A DNA stretch of 40,358 bases. Source: Pirellulales bacterium. Its GTDB lineage: Bacteria; Planctomycetota; Planctomycetia; Pirellulales; PALSA-1355. Of the stretch, positions 424 to 10,595 are shown one piece after another. Every line of letters begins with the position of its first letter. Position 1 is the first letter of the stretch. Under the pieces are notes generated by a model. The model was not told where the DNA came from. It saw only the letters and a program-made list of their open reading frames with translations, and made no database searches. The translations under genes and the position numbers were made by a program. The stretch lies in assembly GCA_022844125.1 (NCBI GenBank), contig JALHMI010000019.1, positions 1-40,358 on the forward strand, read 5' to 3'.

Positions 424-612
424 CTAGTGGTCTGCTTGCGATTCCACGATTGCCAAGATCGCTCCTCGCAGTAGTTGCGAAAGCGTGCGCCACGCTACGA
501 TTACTTGCTTCAAATCAGAATCAAGTTCCTTCAGGCCGCCTGCTGCGTCGGATTCTGCGTCGCGCGTTCCAGAAAATGCCGCTTTCTTCGGGGAATCTGC
601 CGATTTTTCAAC
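424..612 (-). pseudogene. Integrase-tail-like remnant, copy 1
   Basis: A 62-codon minus-strand stretch ending in TAG aligns without gaps to 60 codons at 5220-5402. By my count 31 of 60 residues are identical, and 21 of the last 28. The conserved core is DLxQVIxAWxTLxQxLRxAILAIVExQA. Conservation is clearly at the protein level, and a 14-base block ATTGCCAAGATCGC (449-462) is shared exactly. From memory, tails of the form 'DLxxVIxAWPxLPxxIRxxIxAMV' occur at the C-termini of planctomycete proteins, including tyrosine integrases, so I interpret this as the 3' end of a lost integrase. No start codon or ribosome binding site in the right place was seen. The frame stays open upstream to about 750, but the similarity to copy 2 ends near 612. 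Confidence 0.55.
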
Positions 613-864: not shown

Positions 865-1494
865 TCAATCGGCGGCTGGCGGCTTTGTATTCAATGCCGG
901 ATAGCACTGAGTGTAGACCCGGTCTGTTTTCTTCGCAGGGACGTGGCACGTCCGACAGTCAGTTCTGTAACTGTCGGCAACTTGCTTGGTCCGATCTTCT
1001 CCTTCAAACAAGCCCCATCCCCAGCCGTCGCCCCAGAGTTCGTTCTCCGGAAACCGCCCCTTCGAATCCTTGATCATCACAAACCAGACTTTGATGTCCG
1101 CGCCGTAAGCCGCCTCTCCTGTCGTGAGCTTCGAGTTGCTGGTCGATCGGACCTCTTTGACTAACACCGCGCCATCGGGGAACTTTCCATCTTTCAGAAA
1201 TGCGGCCAGATCCTCGTGGCGGGTGTATGTGCCGTGCAACTCGTTGACCGGCTGATCCGATTTTGGAGCGACCGCTACTGACCCGATGTGAACGAATGTC
1301 GTCTCAAAGTCACCAGGCAGCGCGATGTTCCCCGACGCATCGACGTACTTCGAGAACTGTTCGGGCTTAGAATTCTGAGCACGAAGCTCTCGGATTGCGC
1401 CGACTCCTGCGACAACGAGGAGGCCAACGGCAATGAGGCTTATTCGACCATGCCTGGAAGTAAGTCGTGACTTTAGGCAATTGGATTCATTCAC
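865..1494 (-). CDS. Cytochrome P460-family haem protein (distal gene of module)
   Basis: A 209-residue exported protein with a membrane anchor or uncleaved signal at about 17-38 and a C-terminal CxxCH haem c motif (C180-R-T-C183-H184). The middle region (FPDGAVLVKEV, VWFVMIKDSKGRFPEN) and overall length match the cytochrome P460 family. Characterised members use a haem cross-linked to a lysine to oxidise hydroxylamine or handle NO; other members lack that chemistry. The GTG start is supported by GGGAGTC upstream. It lies 48 bases after the lactonase gene on the same strand and is probably co-transcribed with it and with the second P460 gene. Whether the Lys cross-link forms cannot be judged from sequence. 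Family call is strong, substrate unknown. Confidence 0.85.
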   Translation of the reverse strand: MNESNCLKSRLTSRHGRISLIAVGLLVVAGVGAIRELRAQNSKPEQFSKYVDASGNIALPGDFETTFVHIGSVAVAPKSDQPVNELHGTYTRHEDLAAFLKDGKFPDGAVLVKEVRSTSNSKLTTGEAAYGADIKVWFVMIKDSKGRFPENELWGDGWGWGLFEGEDRTKQVADSYRTDCRTCHVPAKKTDRVYTQCYPALNTKPPAAD

Positions 1495-1542
1495 AGCAGG
1501 ACTCCCGAGGTGTTTGAGGCATCCGTGCGGGCTTAAGGAATT

Positions 1543-2928
1543 TCATTTGTCGATGGTCGCGATGCCTTGTGGACGAGATTTAAAATGGATTCCGTCCTGT
1601 CCTAGGTTGCGTGACTGGATCTTTGAAGGAACCCCATTTTCATCCAGCTGCAAACTATGGAGGATATTTCCTGCCTCGCTCTTGTTCTCATCAGTCTGGT
1701 TGACGCGCTGACAGATGACATAGAGGGTCGTCTCTGCCGGGTTCAGACTGCACTGAAAAGCGGTGCTGCCCGGCTGTTCAAAGTTGCGGTTGTTCTTAAA
1801 CGACTCCCCTGGCATTGGAAGCTCAAGCACACCGATCTCCAGCGGTTTCTCCGCGTGCTCACCGGAGATGTCGTAGGTTGTCACCGTCGCCGCCTTTTGC
1901 CCCAAGTCTGGCCGAGGTAGATTGTTGACCGTGTAGAGCCTGGTTCCCTCTTTGTTGGGCAGCACCCAGCAAATGTCTTGACCGCTATTGGCGACGGAAC
2001 CCTTGAAGTGCATTTCACCTTCCTTGGTGAAGTGGTACACGCCAAGTTCGTTCCTCGTAACGAAGCCCACGTACAGCAACGGTTGCTTGGGATGGGTCCA
2101 GATGCCCAGTGGCATTGACGGGACGCCAGCCATTCCCTTGTATTTGTATTCGGCGTTGGTTTCCGGAACTTGCAGGCGACGCTTTTCTGTCAGGACACTT
2201 CCGTGACCAATCTGAAATACATGCAACTGCCCTTGAACACTCGGCTTGAGGCCTGCAACAAACGAGCGTTGTTCATCCCCATCGAAATCAGCATCCACCT
2301 GAAAGTCGGATCCGAACGCGATAGCGGGCTCTGTCTGCGAGGCATGGATCTGAGTCGGCTTCTGTGATCCTTCTACCTCAATTTTCGACACCTTCCGTAA
2401 CGCCCCGTCATCCTCAACCACGAATGACACATAGCTGGCATTTGCCCGGCCGCGCAGTTCCTCTAATTGGTGATAGTCCTCGTTACGATTGGCCGCCAGC
2501 AACGTATGGCCACTGATGGACAAACTGTTTGGGCCCACCCCATGCGATGGAAACGGCGAACCCTTGACCTGTTTCAACGAGCCGTCATCGTGAATCGTGA
2601 ATGCGGCGATCGTATTGCTGTGCGTGTTGACGGTAAATAGATACTTGCCATTCGGGCTGATGATCAGCGGCGTGTCATTGTCATGCGGTCCCAGCTTCGC
2701 GTGAGTGTCGTTGTTCATCCCGGTTCCGGCCGTGTAGAACGGGTTCCCCGACAGCGGCGATAGTGATCCATCGTCGTGCCGGACGTATCCCAGTACCGCA
2801 TTTTGCCCTTCACGAGTATCGTTCGCCTGGATGTAGAGGTAACCAACATGATCAGCGAGCGAAGGATCAATCAGGGTCACGAACAACAAGAACGCGCCGA
2901 CTACGGTGCGAAAAATAGTCTGAGACAA
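1543..2928 (-). CDS. Exported beta-propeller protein, lactonase (6-phosphogluconolactonase-like) family
   Basis: A 461-residue protein with an N-terminal signal sequence (about 1-25, ending SLADH) followed by repeated propeller blades, e.g. LIISPNGKYLFTVNTHSNTIAAFTI and LGIWTHPKQPLLYVGF. This is the pattern of the lactonase/YVTN seven-bladed propellers. Relatives include 6-phosphogluconolactonase and muconate-lactonising enzymes, but an exported copy between two cytochromes is unlikely to act in the pentose phosphate pathway. It may be a periplasmic scaffold or electron-transfer partner; that is inference. The apparent start is TTG at 2928 with CGGAGT 8 bases upstream. It lies 117 bases downstream of one P460 gene and 48 bases upstream of the other. 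Confidence 0.8.
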   Translation of the reverse strand: MSQTIFRTVVGAFLLFVTLIDPSLADHVGYLYIQANDTREGQNAVLGYVRHDDGSLSPLSGNPFYTAGTGMNNDTHAKLGPHDNDTPLIISPNGKYLFTVNTHSNTIAAFTIHDDGSLKQVKGSPFPSHGVGPNSLSISGHTLLAANRNEDYHQLEELRGRANASYVSFVVEDDGALRKVSKIEVEGSQKPTQIHASQTEPAIAFGSDFQVDADFDGDEQRSFVAGLKPSVQGQLHVFQIGHGSVLTEKRRLQVPETNAEYKYKGMAGVPSMPLGIWTHPKQPLLYVGFVTRNELGVYHFTKEGEMHFKGSVANSGQDICWVLPNKEGTRLYTVNNLPRPDLGQKAATVTTYDISGEHAEKPLEIGVLELPMPGESFKNNRNFEQPGSTAFQCSLNPAETTLYVICQRVNQTDENKSEAGNILHSLQLDENGVPSKIQSRNLGQDGIHFKSRPQGIATIDK

Positions 2929-3045
2929 GTGCGGTACTCCGAAATGTGGGTGTAGATGCGCATGTGACGCAATTGAGTGCTTCAGTCGACTTTGAACGAC
3001 AGGGCATCGACACCGCGGACCTAATGCTCCGTCGATGCGGTGTAA

Positions 3046-3645
3046 TCACTTTGACGCCTTCTGCAGCGCATCCTTTAGCACCGGGAAGACGCCGGAGAAG
3101 ACAAAGTTTGTGGCGTTCTTCTCGTGACAGCTATTGCAGGACATAACTCCGCTTTTCGCAGCCTCTGCCTTAAGCGGGTATTTGTGCCCGAAGCTGAAGT
3201 AGGCCCAATTTCCTGGTTCTTTCGGAAAACGCTTACTATCCTTCATGGAGACTTCCAGACCAATGAAGTCGCCTTGGAAGTAGCCTTTTCCGCTGGTTTG
3301 CTCCTTGGAGCCGACCGACAGCAGCTCCTTGACGATCACGGTCCCGTCTCGGTACTCACCCGTTTTTTCGACATGGGCGAAGCTATCAGGGTCCATATAC
3401 GTGTTGTGGAATTCCGGGAAGCTGGCCTCACCGTCATTCATGTCATTCGGCGTGAGAGGTGAGCCAATGAATACCCACTTGCGGTATCCCACCGGCTGTT
3501 TTGCCTTTCCGTCAGCTGTAAACTCGATCCAAGACTTCGCTTCGCTCTTCTGTTGCGCGAATGCCGCGGGACCATTTGAAAGCCATGCGCCGATCACACA
3601 CGCGCCCGCCGCACACGACAGACCAACCATCAATCGAACGTTCAT
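3046..3645 (-). CDS. Cytochrome P460-family haem protein (promoter-proximal gene of module)
   Basis: A 199-residue exported protein with a signal sequence at about 1-31 (ending AAFAQQ), the P460-like core (YRKWVFIGSPLTPNDMN, FHNTYMDPDSFAHVEKTG, GTVIVKELLSVG) and a C-terminal CxxCH (C170-N-S-C173-H174). I chose ATG 3645 over an upstream in-frame alternative at 3681 because GAGGA lies 5 bases before it and the signal peptide begins there. It is the first gene of the minus-strand set and has its own promoter and a palindromic operator (3722-3772). It is divergent from a Crp/Fnr-type regulator. It differs from the distal P460 over most of its length, so the pair is not a recent duplication. Likely role is periplasmic hydroxylamine, NO or related redox chemistry, inferred from family. 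Confidence 0.87.
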   Translation of the reverse strand: MNVRLMVGLSCAAGACVIGAWLSNGPAAFAQQKSEAKSWIEFTADGKAKQPVGYRKWVFIGSPLTPNDMNDGEASFPEFHNTYMDPDSFAHVEKTGEYRDGTVIVKELLSVGSKEQTSGKGYFQGDFIGLEVSMKDSKRFPKEPGNWAYFSFGHKYPLKAEAAKSGVMSCNSCHEKNATNFVFSGVFPVLKDALQKASK

Positions 3646-3721
3646 TGCAGTCCTCGCTCTGGGGGTTAAGCAGGCTGGCAACTACCAGCGGATTAGGCCA
3701 ACCGGAAATTCAGTTGGTGTG

Positions 3722-3750
3722 CAATCATCTTATAGGGGCCCCTACCGCAC
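3722..3750 (-). promoter_or_regulatory. Predicted promoter of the P460-lactonase-P460 genes
   Basis: On the minus strand a TATAAG -10 element occupies 3734-3729, which places transcription start near 3722. The -35 position overlaps the palindrome next to it (CTGACA, 19-base spacer). A weak -35 overlapped by a regulator site is the usual layout of an activator-dependent promoter. Confidence 0.45.
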
Positions 3751-3772
3751 TTCTGTCAGGTAAATGACAGAA
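3751..3772. promoter_or_regulatory. Palindromic operator, TTCTGTCA-N6-TGACAGAA
   Basis: Two perfect 8-base arms (3751-3758 and 3765-3772) are separated by six bases. The core TGTCA-N6-TGACA has the arm length and spacing of Crp/Fnr-family sites. It resembles the CO-sensor CooA site as I recall it (TGTCA-N6-CGACA) more than the Crp site TGTGA-N6-TCACA. Its centre is about 40 bases upstream of the predicted start at 3722, close to the -41.5 of class II activators. It also lies in front of the divergent regulator gene, so that regulator is the obvious ligand and may autoregulate. Confidence 0.6.
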
Positions 3773-3909
3773 ACGTCGGTTTTCATCAAATACTCTTCAC
3801 ACAGGCATATCGCCGAGGTGCCCTCACTCTCGGTTGCAAAGTCCGATCCGCAGTGATGTGTGTCTCTGCAGGATATGCTCTAAATAGAAATGAACTACAG
3901 GACGACAGC

Positions 3910-4578
3910 ATGCAAATCCTCTCTGATCTCTCCACGCCATTCGTGAACGCCTGCAGCAAAATCAACTCCGCTGTCACTCGTGATCTGAGGCCCAAAACGC
4001 TCATCTACCTACGTCGAACGCCCGGAACCACATGGATCATCAAGCGTGGATACGTGCGGCTTTCCTATGTCGAACCCAAGGGAAGATCTTTGACGCGACT
4101 GCTGCTCGGGAAGGGAGCGATGTTTGGTGATCTGCCCTTTACCCCGGGCTTCTTCCTGCCAAATGAGCAGGCAATTTCAAGTGGGATTTCGTGCGTGATC
4201 GAGATCAGCCGACAGGAATTAGAGAAACACGCATTGGCGATGCCCATTTTCGAATCGTTGTTGCTTCAGACTTTCTCGTCGCAGTTGCAAGCTCTTGATC
4301 GACGCATGCAGTGGCAATTGATCTTCCCGCTGCGTACTCGTATCGCCACGGCGCTCCATGACCTGGCGTGCTTTTCCGGTGGACGTTGTGGGCACGGTCA
4401 CCTCGTCGACGTGCGGCTCACGCACGAGGAGTTTGCCGAGTTAGTCGTGGCGGCGCGGCCAGTTGTCTCCGAAGTACTGGTAGAACTCAAGCAGGAGGGG
4501 ATTATCGACTACACGCGATCTTACATTTGCCTGCTCAGTCTGGATCGCCTGTCCAGCCTGAGCGCTGCTGAGCATTGA
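3910..4578 (+). CDS. Crp/Fnr-family transcriptional regulator
   Basis: A 222-residue protein with an N-terminal cyclic-nucleotide-binding-like beta-roll (about 20-105), a long dimer helix (about 110-150, LLLQTFSSQLQALDRRMQ) and a C-terminal winged helix (about 170-215, LTHEEFAELVVAARPVVSEVLVELKQEGII). The recognition helix reads ARPVVSEV where Crp has SRETVGRI: the Arg is kept, but the Glu and second Arg are replaced by Pro and Glu. This suggests a changed DNA half-site, consistent with the nearby TGTCA arms. No Cys cluster of Fnr type is visible. I use ATG 3910; an in-frame GTG at 3853 would add 19 residues not typical of the family. It is divergent from the P460 genes and overlaps the next small gene by one base. 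Confidence 0.85.
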   Translation: MQILSDLSTPFVNACSKINSAVTRDLRPKTLIYLRRTPGTTWIIKRGYVRLSYVEPKGRSLTRLLLGKGAMFGDLPFTPGFFLPNEQAISSGISCVIEISRQELEKHALAMPIFESLLLQTFSSQLQALDRRMQWQLIFPLRTRIATALHDLACFSGGRCGHGHLVDVRLTHEEFAELVVAARPVVSEVLVELKQEGIIDYTRSYICLLSLDRLSSLSAAEH

Positions 4579-4790
4579 TGCCGATGGTGACGAGCGCGGT
4601 CTTGTTAGTGAGTTGGGGGATGATGTTCACTTATCTTTTCTTTCTTGGCTATTTGCGGTGGGCCGATCTTCAGGCAGAAAACGTCGCCACGAAGAGCCCA
4701 ACAAAAAAACGGCGCTCCGCGGCTAACCGGGATGCCGTTCGTTTAGTCGTCCGATTCGTCTTTCGCGTGAAAGCTAATCACTACGGGTGA
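4578..4790 (+). CDS. Tiny single-pass membrane protein
   Basis: A 70-residue product begins at ATG 4578, overlapping the regulator stop by one base (TGATG), so it is translationally coupled to it. One hydrophobic segment at about 5-27 (SAVLLVSWGMMFTYLFFLGYL) is followed by a strongly basic tail. Size and layout resemble CcmD or CcoQ-type small subunits of cytochrome assembly or oxidase complexes, which would suit the haem-protein context. The similarity is only in general architecture, so I leave it unnamed. Coupling and composition support a real gene. Confidence 0.6.
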   Translation: MPMVTSAVLLVSWGMMFTYLFFLGYLRWADLQAENVATKSPTKKRRSAANRDAVRLVVRFVFRVKANHYG

Positions 4791-5219: not shown

Positions 5220-5402
5220 CTATGCTTGAGTCTCGACAATTGCCAAGATCGCCTGGCGCAGGGTCTGCGGCAGGGTACCCCAGGCTGCGATCACTTGCTG
5301 GAGATCGCGGGCATGTCTACTTTGATTCGCAACTGCGTTGTTTCGTGCGTCGCGCGATTGTGAAATCCCAGTTTTTCCCGGCAGTTTCGAGGATTGTTCG
5401 AC
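5220..5402 (-). pseudogene. Integrase-tail-like remnant, copy 2
   Basis: Sixty codons plus stop on the minus strand align gap-free with copy 1 at 424-612. The shared end is DLQQVIAAWGTLPQTLRQAIL followed by AIVETQA. As with copy 1, upstream of the similarity the frame continues only briefly (to 5474) and holds no recombinase catalytic motif. The two copies have the same orientation and enclose the whole P460/regulator module. I read it as the 3' end of a lost or deleted tyrosine integrase; the family assignment is from memory of planctomycete integrase tails. Confidence 0.55.
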
Positions 5403-5938: not shown

Positions 5939-6244
5939 GTGGATGCCACGTCGCTCACGCTCGGCGCTTTTTTTGCGCGCCGCTACCTACCCACGTACCT
6001 CGCTGGAGCCAGCGAGCGGACGATCGTCGAGTATCGAACGTCGCTCGCCAAGTGGGCCGCGCTCACTGCGGATCGGCCGCTCGAAGCGATCACGGTCGAA
6101 GATCTCGCCGCGTTCAAAACCAAGCTCCTGGAGCTGCACGGCCGCCGCGCCGCCACACTCGCCGCCGCGACTGCCAACAAACACCTCCGCCACATTCACG
6201 GCGTGCTCGTCACGCTGTCCGCCTCTGCGCCTGCTATGCATTGA
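5939..6244 (+). pseudogene. Truncated tyrosine recombinase (N-terminal core-binding domain only)
   Basis: A 101-codon frame starting at GTG 5939 encodes a SAM-like integrase core-binding domain: LTLGAFFARRYLPTYL, then ERTIVEYRTSLAKWAAL, then ITVEDLAAFKTKLLEL, then TANKHLRHIHGVL. Family members continue for about 250 more residues with the catalytic R..HxxR..Y domain. Here the frame ends at TGA 6244 soon after the fourth helix and runs straight into a redoxin gene. No catalytic domain is found nearby on either strand, so the gene cannot make an active recombinase. Confidence 0.75.
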
Positions 6245-6282
6245 TCAACTCTGTCCAGTTGCCGGCATACGAGCGGTTCGTG

Positions 6283-6762
6283 ATGATCGAGAACCGCGCT
6301 TGGAAAACGCACGTCGGCGATCCGGCGCCGGACATCACGGTCGTCATGCTCGATGGCTCGACCAAGCGGCTGTCAGAACTGCGCGGCAAGCTCGTGGTGG
6401 TGAACTTCTTCGCGACCTGGTGCGGTCCGTGCAACTATGAACTTCCGCACCTCCAGACGCTGTGGGCCAATCTGAAGGCGAACGACGGCGTCACGATGCT
6501 GGTGATTGATCTTAAGGAAGACGCCGACACGGTGAAGTCTTTTCTTTCCCAGCACGAGTACACGTTTCCGGTGGCGCTCGATCCAAGTGCCGAGGCGTTC
6601 AAACAGTTTGCCGACGAGGGCATCCCGCAGACGTATCTGATCGGCCGCGATGGCAGGATTCTGTTTCAAACGCTGGGGTTCGCCAAAGATTCGCCGGTCT
6701 ACGAGCGCGAACTGGCGACATTGCGGCGCACGATCGCCAGCGAGCTGGCGTCCGCCCGGTAA
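6283..6762 (+). CDS. TlpA/AhpC-type thioredoxin-fold protein, apparently 5'-truncated
   Basis: The 159 residues from ATG 6283 form a redoxin domain: GDPAPDITVVMLDG, LRGKLVVVNFFATWCGPCNY with the redox pair CGPC, then the cis-Pro loop GIPQTYLIGRDGRI. Such proteins reduce disulphides or apocytochrome thiols outside the cytoplasm and normally carry a signal peptide or longer N-terminus. None is present. The reading frame stays protein-like upstream (LPAYERFVMIENRAWK) to the end of the integrase fragment, which suggests that the original 5' end was replaced. No good ribosome binding site is seen at 6283; TTG 6241 or GTG 6280 are alternatives. Domain call strong, start and functionality doubtful. 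Confidence 0.7.
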   Translation: MIENRAWKTHVGDPAPDITVVMLDGSTKRLSELRGKLVVVNFFATWCGPCNYELPHLQTLWANLKANDGVTMLVIDLKEDADTVKSFLSQHEYTFPVALDPSAEAFKQFADEGIPQTYLIGRDGRILFQTLGFAKDSPVYERELATLRRTIASELASAR

Positions 6763-9998: not shown

Positions 9999-10595
9999 CT
10001 AGCGCTTCTCGACCAGGCAGGACCAGCCGAGAAATTGCACCGGAACGCCGGGGGCTTCGTCGAAACGGAACTCACGCAGGTCGAGGATCTCGAAGGCCTG
10101 GCCGAGTTCGCCGCGAAGTTGCTCTTCGGTGACCACCGGCGGCCCGGGCTCGTGCGGCTCGCGGGCGTTGCCGGCCAGGACGAGCCCGCGTGCGCCGGCG
10201 GCCAGGTGCCGGGCGACGGCCGGAGCGTACGCTTGGGGCGCGCTGCGCCGGACTGCGTGGTAACAACCGCGATCGAAGAAGAATCCGAACGGGCCCTTCA
10301 GCTCGGGCAAGGCGAGGACGTCGGCGGTGAGGAACTCCGCCTGGACGCCGGCGGCCTGAGCGCGCTCGTGGGCCTTTTCGATTGCCAGCGAAGCGACGTC
10401 AACGCCGGTGACGGTGAAGCCCTGTTGGGCCAGCCAGACGCAGTTGGTGCCGGTTCCGCAGCCGATCTCCAGCGCGCGGCAGGGATGAATCGCGTGCTGG
10501 GTGACGACGCGCTGCAGCTCTGCCGATGGCCGGCCCGTATCCCACGGCATGCTGCCTTCGCGGTAGCTATCGTTCCAATCGCGGTGGTCTTTCAT
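9999..10595 (-). CDS. SAM-dependent methyltransferase
   Basis: A 198-residue class I methyltransferase. Motif I is ALEIGCGTGT (41-50), followed by an acidic strand end (VTGVDVASLAIEKAHERA) and motif post-I AEFLTADVLALPEL. The N-terminus WNDSYREGSMPWDTGRPSAE is typical of thiopurine S-methyltransferase-like and tellurite-resistance-like members. Substrate not predictable. The frame is open far upstream to 11489, but ATG 10595 matches the family start. It is divergent from the DUF2007 gene with about 125 bases between them. Confidence 0.82.
   Translation of the reverse strand: MKDHRDWNDSYREGSMPWDTGRPSAELQRVVTQHAIHPCRALEIGCGTGTNCVWLAQQGFTVTGVDVASLAIEKAHERAQAAGVQAEFLTADVLALPELKGPFGFFFDRGCYHAVRRSAPQAYAPAVARHLAAGARGLVLAGNAREPHEPGPPVVTEEQLRGELGQAFEILDLREFRFDEAPGVPVQFLGWSCLVEKR

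Follow-up and report, generated by a model that had tools for sequence, protein, structure and literature searches.

The proteins considered here have their closest described relatives in separate systems. Hydroxylamine (NH2OH) oxidation by cytochromes P460 has been tied to a cross-link lysine, a distal carboxylate and a capping residue (PMC11928373, as far as its Table 2 shows). The available sections of the same 2025 review report that NsP460, a naturally occurring variant in which Ala replaces the carboxylate, is inactive, and call the function of P460s with non-polar pockets unresolved, while P460 homologues appear only sporadically in comammox Nitrospira according to the available parts of two other papers (PMC6311188, PMC6478695). 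The DUF417 family members RclC and RcrB of Escherichia coli are needed for resistance to hypothiocyanous and hypochlorous acid (HOSCN and HOCl), by means described as unknown in the sections available (PMC12096828, PMC9600549). In this study, we analysed the first 40,358 nucleotides (nt) of contig JALHMI010000019.1 (C19) of a Pirellulales bacterium, hereafter the window, in which two cytochromes P460 of different types (P460A and P460B) flank a seven-bladed propeller opposite a Crp/Fnr-family regulator. The best explanation, to which we assign a probability of roughly 0.6, is that these genes form a horizontally spread, self-regulated cassette directed against oxidant and nitrosative stress. 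No paper on this cassette, or on cytochrome P460 together with a lactonase, was found in the open-access literature; searches pairing P460 with hypochlorite or methionine sulfoxide reductase (Msr) gave only papers that were unrelated by title and start of abstract, and the available part of the main text of PMC9751292 mentions neither P460 nor lactonase.

The order and strands of the genes, as described in the first-pass annotation of the window, hold (Table 1), and all three proteins of the minus strand exceed their Pfam cut-offs (27 for PF16694, 21.7 for PF10282, Lactonase). Intergenic gaps between P460A, propeller and P460B are short (117 and 48 nt) and operon-like, and the search of the 6.44-Mb genome gave no PF16694 match besides the two P460s. 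Alignments with orthologues place the likely true starts downstream of the starts of the open reading frames (ORFs), at 3645 for P460A and at ATG 3910 for the regulator. A small ORF after the regulator had been read as a coupled tiny membrane protein; it has no Pfam match, nothing among 14,457 ORFs from 43 related loci matches it at E ≤ 10, and it was rejected as part of the module.

Table 1. Positions of features in the 40,358-nt window
Feature	Coordinates	Strand	Remarks
P460A, cytochrome P460 of catalytic type	3046..3681	-	PF16694 95.5 bits
Propeller, seven-bladed lactonase fold, hydrophobic leader, TTG start	1543..2928	-	PF10282 34.2 bits
P460B, cytochrome P460 with hydrophobic pocket	865..1494	-	PF16694 84.7 bits
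Crp/Fnr-family regulator	3853..4578	+	HTH_Crp_2 48 bits
Operator candidate, palindrome	3751..3772		between regulator and P460A
Direct repeat, left copy	433..516	+	84 nt, 71% identical
Direct repeat, right copy	5223..5306	+	84 nt, 71% identical
Tiny ORF	4575..4790	+	unsupported as conserved gene

P460A aligns with the Nitrosomonas cytochrome P460 structure PDB 6e17 over residues 42-204 (E = 8.3e-51), and all three determinants of hydroxylamine oxidation are present by alignment, with K118 as the cross-link lysine, E143 as the distal carboxylate and F88 as the cap, in addition to the haem motif C182-x-x-C185-H186. The lysine is invariant among 23 P460A-type sequences, and the carboxylate position is occupied by Glu in 16, Asp in five, Cys in one and Ala in one. 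P460A thus shares CXXCH, lysine, glutamate and capping Phe with the enzymes of Nitrosomonas europaea and Nitrosomonas sp. AL212, and differs from them in sharing its locus with a second P460, a propeller and a regulator. P460B, whose haem motif is C180-x-x-C183-H184, retains the lysine (K113) and has F138 in place of the carboxylate and, in the window, V83 at the cap position; its best PDB match has E = 2.5e-10, and its model matches cytochrome P460 6e0z at E = 2.9e-8. Both K113 and F138 are kept in 18/18 aligned sequences, so that Phe stands throughout where hydroxylamine-oxidising P460s have their carboxylate. This combination of the P460 lysine with a non-polar residue is common to P460B and the 'halfway-house' P460s or cytochromes c'-beta (NsP460 and McCP-beta) covered in the available sections of PMC11928373; P460B differs from NsP460 in having Phe rather than Ala and in being fused to cytochrome c in four loci. 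For two of these (L085 and L087) Pfam names the cytochrome c domain, L085 having a further CXXCH segment, and in L098 and L099 the fusion was judged from a second CXXCH in the sequence. The divergence claimed for the two P460s is therefore visible in their active sites (E143 against F138), while both carry the haem motif, and homologues lacking haem binding, which would have spoken against the module, were not encountered (CXXCH in 18/18 P460B and 23/23 P460A sequences, 41/41 in total). All 41 also have a hydrophobic leader, as judged from hydropathy only. As a separate observation, a further P460-type protein with Cys or Ala at the carboxylate position lies beside the Nitrospira propeller (L086:9319-10005 and L088:9354-9965), and some genomes of the phylum (L052-L056, L066, L070, L071) have at least two P460 domains in one open frame (328-364 or 541-547 amino acids).

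The AlphaFold model of the propeller (predicted local distance difference test 86.9, predicted template modelling score 0.88) has the 6-phosphogluconolactonase 6nau as its best fold match (Z 38.1), tied with 1ri6 and the periplasmic gluconolactonase PpgL of Pseudomonas aeruginosa, 6igb (Z 37.8-38.1), and this, together with the PF10282 score, identifies a lactonase-type seven-bladed propeller. Blade number and a Z of about 38 are shared with those enzymes, whereas sequence identity is 13-16% and the NCBIfam 6-phosphogluconolactonase equivalog PRK11028 gives 25.7 bits against a cut-off of 370. Another likeness is to the beta subunit of hydrazine synthase (Z 30.1), where a propeller likewise accompanies nitrogen-active haem proteins, but it is weakened by the many unrelated propellers at Z 28-30 and by the leaderless propellers of other loci; hydrazine synthase genes were not searched for. 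The propeller of the window has a hydrophobic leader (hydropathy only), in agreement with the export assigned to it earlier. By the same criterion the leader is absent in 8/28 propellers (L086, L087, L088, L091, L092, L098, L099 and L114), which include those of Nitrospira and Acidobacteriota as well as L098 and L099; these begin 3-9 residues before the conserved strand, or 24 if L091 uses an upstream GTG. The L119 propeller has its leader upstream and is not counted among the eight. Because these propellers are leaderless while all the P460s have a leader, a general periplasmic bridging complex is untenable, and the suggestion that the propeller channels between the cytochromes does not hold generally. 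Four propeller genes unlinked to P460 (L101, L105, L107, L113) each belong to a tandem pair whose other member is a distant propeller. The propeller gene at L097:739-2099 is split over two frames, which may reflect a frameshift or an error in sequencing.

The regulator exceeds the HTH_Crp_2 cut-off of 27 bits and thus has a Crp-type helix-turn-helix (HTH); its cyclic nucleotide (cNMP)-binding domain reaches 23.4 bits in the window against a cut-off of 27.5, and 31.3 in the L086 orthologue. Just before the HTH, 13 of the 14 orthologous regulators looked at carry a C-x5-C-x-H element, the first Cys being absent in L092; one of two extra regulator copies in L086 has the element and the other lacks its first Cys. 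Thiol or metal sensing through this element is our guess from sequence. Between the divergent regulator and P460A lies a 22-bp palindrome with perfect 8+8 arms, TTCTGTCA-N6-TGACAGAA, which has one exact match in the window where 0.02 are expected. When one mismatch at most is allowed, its core TGTCA-N6-TGACA is present in 14/14 regulator upstream regions (the window among them; 3,343 bases, with bounds set by hand), compared with an average of 0.115 and never more than 2 in 200 base shuffles, and L089, outside that set, brings the count to 15/15, Nitrospira included. In regulator loci P460A follows the site, except in L088, where the flank ends before any P460A; L095, with its propeller divergent, has one site on each side of the regulator. 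The Nitrospira locus L086 has four sites, preceding P460B-SelO, another regulator copy, an MsrB-DyP-propeller-P460 run and P460A, and in its 4.0-Mb genome four of the five sites at ≤3 mismatches fall within 11 kb in this P460 island. Two half-sites 6 bp apart are also a feature of CRP (TGTGA-N6-TCACA) and CooA (TGTCA-N6-CGACA) operators; unlike those cases, the regulator here has a cNMP domain below cut-off and the C-x5-C-x-H element.

Occurrences of the site elsewhere were examined for a wider regulon. The exact 16-mer occurs four times in the window's own genome, the three copies outside the module overlapping ORFs in a six-frame scan, and the 18-mer at ≤3 mismatches is found only in the module and at C24:8856, which also overlaps ORFs. 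The 14 propeller loci without a P460 contain two one-mismatch 16-mers, neither with the full consensus, and only one 22-mer above score 11 (L104, 17.9), the training sites scoring 21.0-29.5. G444, the genome of L083, has a one-mismatch site close to the 5' end of a secretin/pilus-type gene (L150:5115, C97:10114), possibly upstream of its true start; this may be chance or a wider regulon, and no link to the cassette is made. The remaining extra sites in G444 and in the Nitrospira genome G443 are inside ORFs. Nitrospira moscoviensis has no 18-mer site within three mismatches, its sites being weaker.

It should be noted that many of the records compared come from metagenome binning and may be misnamed. 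Among 57 relatives (own genome included), two other genomes have the propeller at E < 1e-40, both with a P460 pair nearby. Across 392 genomes of the phylum only the window, G015 and G298 match the propeller profile strongly (E < 1e-100), and the cassette is therefore rare in the phylum, in which 66/392 genomes have any P460. No P460 was present within the 19 kb fetched around the G298 propeller, the one PF16694 match of that genome being about 32 kb away. A scan of species representatives gave 41 propeller loci, or 39 after removal of identical copies (L100 and L109); L095 is the locus of G015 and L118 that of G023. A homologue of P460A or P460B (E ≤ 1e-5) lies in the fetched flank of 23 of the 39 and in none of 14 others, while L093 and L096, which begin close to the propeller, were left out of these counts (L096 has DUF417 and MsrB, L093 neither). 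The P460A-propeller-P460B order recurs in eight other loci from two phyla, so it is not peculiar to this genome, as the first-pass annotation had asked to be checked, and five of the eight have the regulator as well, in the arrangement of the window (L081, L082, L083, L084, L085), which supports a module with a Crp/Fnr-type regulator of its own. The other three have no regulator match (L117 of Methylomonas methanica, L118, L119), and L095 contains P460s, regulator and propeller in a rearranged order. Carriers include Nitrospira moscoviensis, a nitrite oxidiser, and Methylomonas methanica, a methanotroph. Propellers of L117-L119 are 30-38% identical to the others compared, and the P460A of L118 and L119 is 61-63% identical to that of the window; by sequence, two propeller subtypes occupy the same slot. 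In a quick tree the Nitrospira and Acidobacteriota propellers nest among planctomycete ones, with Shimodaira-Hasegawa-like approximate likelihood ratio test values of 85 and 86, under the 95 mark, and this nesting suggests transfer of the propeller between phyla. Of 78 relatives of G443, 16 match the P460B profile. A plasmid search with the propeller gave one distant match with no P460 annotated beside it. The Nitrospira moscoviensis chromosome holds two identical 17,296-base stretches with the P460 island (L091 and L100), a real duplication or an assembly artefact.

To characterise the neighbourhoods, representative proteins of MsrA, MsrB, Dps-like, SelO, DyP, CCP (cytochrome c peroxidase) and DUF417 were searched (E ≤ 1e-8) in 50 fetched loci (L072-L121), L011, L132 and the window; Pfam assigns names to 15 of the proteins found, those of Dps type being called no more than ferritin-like. 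At least one such gene is present in 18/24 P460-linked propeller loci (window counted) and in 0/14 unlinked loci (Fisher p = 4e-6), or in 10/12 and 0/11 after relatives were collapsed by hand (p = 7e-5), p-values that serve as a guide only because the loci were picked by homology, not as a random sample, and several unlinked ones (L111, L112, L121) are short. The closest associations are an MsrB gene immediately preceding P460A in Methylomonas (L117), P460B followed at once by DUF417 in L083 and L095 or by Dps in L110, and a run of MsrB, DyP, propeller and P460 in Nitrospira. DUF417, over its cut-off in only 10/392 genomes of the phylum, is found in the flanks of four of the eight distinct planctomycete P460-linked loci outside the window and near the propeller in seven loci overall, one of which (L096) has too little sequence for a P460 to be seen. 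In this respect the cassette recalls the HOCl and HOSCN resistance operons rclABC and rcrARB of E. coli; it differs in that the window has no DUF417 match, and no P460 or propeller is described for those operons in the available sections of PMC12096828 and PMC9600549. Of the loci with a P460A-type gene and no propeller, 0/6 (L073-L076, L079, L080) have any of the tested families; L077 has a Dps match and L078 no tested family. Chlorite dismutase (PF06778, a family that also includes HemQ) was considered as a further link and proved uninformative, since it matches in 6/6 carrier genomes tested and in none of the fetched cassette loci; in G023 one match (42 bits) shares a contig with the module, some 9.5 kb past P460A.

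The flanks of the cassette hold traces of mobility. The direct repeat that brackets it was found only at these two places in its own genome when a 137-nt query over the left copy was used (E ≤ 0.001). An ORF at 5939-6244 is truncated and resembles the N-terminal part of phage integrases, with 21.5 bits just under the cut-off of 22.3; its end is overlapped by a Redoxin/thioredoxin-like protein (6052-6762; Redoxin, 86.9 bits) with no exact operator site near. In L081, a peptide similar to the repeat region is encoded downstream of the module (10470-10517).

From these observations a working scheme can be proposed. The regulator, perhaps acting via its C-x5-C-x-H element, would bind the TGTCA-N6-TGACA palindrome and control both the P460A-propeller-P460B operon and itself. 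Exported P460A would oxidise hydroxylamine, alone or with nitric oxide (NO), to nitrous oxide (N2O) or NO, as Nitrosomonas P460 does. Exported P460B, presumably incapable of this reaction because the carboxylate is absent, would bind NO or another small ligand and exchange electrons with cytochrome c, its fusion partner in other loci, and the propeller would be a co-regulated accessory enzyme or scaffold, in a compartment that depends on the lineage and with no obligatory bridging role. The unit may thus defend the cell envelope from reactive nitrogen and oxidant species beside Msr, peroxidase, Dps-like and DUF417 proteins, and not serve energy metabolism. Several results weigh against this scheme. 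None of the tested stress families occurs in the flanks of the window itself, where only 864 nt are visible beyond P460B, or in five further linked loci (L082, L092, L103, L118, L119), and the association elsewhere has the guarded statistics given above. The sole DUF417 match of the own genome is on contig C4, not beside the cassette, and the 18 kb around it contain no operator-like site above score 11. P460-linked loci without the regulator (L087, L098, L099, L103, L110, L114, L117-L119) also have no site above that score, and in Nitrospira the cassette genes are spread over about 10 kb.

Among the alternatives, a unit confined to periplasmic hydroxylamine and NO chemistry, in which P460A oxidises hydroxylamine, P460B traps NO and the propeller docks both, is possible though rather unlikely. 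The lysine, glutamate and capping Phe that this needs are all present in P460A, hosts such as Nitrospira moscoviensis and Methylomonas methanica meet hydroxylamine and NO, and the stress neighbours could be a response to peroxynitrite and NO damage, peroxynitrite also oxidising methionine. Docking is not general, however, given the leaderless propellers, and DUF417, Dps, SelO and DyP are, to our knowledge, no specific markers of nitrosative stress. The nitrosative role first proposed therefore survives for P460A. Taken as the only role, it is one of two viable options, and the gene context points to oxidants at least as strongly. 'Self-contained', the term first applied to the module, fits its possession of a regulator and does not fit other loci, where the same operator type and neighbourhood take in methionine sulfoxide, peroxidase and DUF417 genes.

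The propeller might also be a true lactonase, for instance a 6-phosphogluconolactonase where it is cytoplasmic, helping to supply NADPH for Msr and peroxidases; the closest folds and the leaderless Nitrospira propellers agree with this, but the low identity and the PRK11028 score do not, and exported propellers could not serve the 6-phosphogluconolactone pathway, which makes it improbable. A comparably long shot, drawn from chloramine as a close analogue of hydroxylamine, is that in these hosts the P460s are not hydroxylamine enzymes and form a haem system against N-chloro or other reactive halogen-nitrogen oxidants. The cross-linked haem of P460A would then be the place where such oxidants are oxidised or dechlorinated, with P460B handing electrons on to cytochrome c and the Crp/Fnr regulator signalling the oxidant by way of its thiols; if true, this would give the P460 fold a new substrate class and reveal a new oxidant-defence system linked to DUF417. 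Least probable of all is that stress genes merely cluster in mobile islands and that P460s, propeller and regulator have unrelated roles. The flanking repeats and the integrase-like remnant would suit such an island, as would the loci in which genes are scattered or the regulator absent, but the palindrome stands in every region upstream of the regulator and recurs at the promoters of further members in Nitrospira, and the same gene order is kept with two propeller subtypes only 30-38% alike.

For the P460 family, the stress-cassette reading means that gene order and fusions connect one protein with a non-polar pocket, P460B, with a P460 of catalytic type, with a propeller and with cytochrome c, and that a shared DNA site and neighbourhood tie P460B to oxidant-repair genes in hosts including Nitrospira moscoviensis and planctomycetes. 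An orphan P460 family thereby becomes part of a stress regulon that is open to testing and for which a candidate operator is defined. This suggests that the hydroxylamine/NO or oxidant chemistry of P460s, possible N2O release included, is spread well beyond the ammonia oxidisers.

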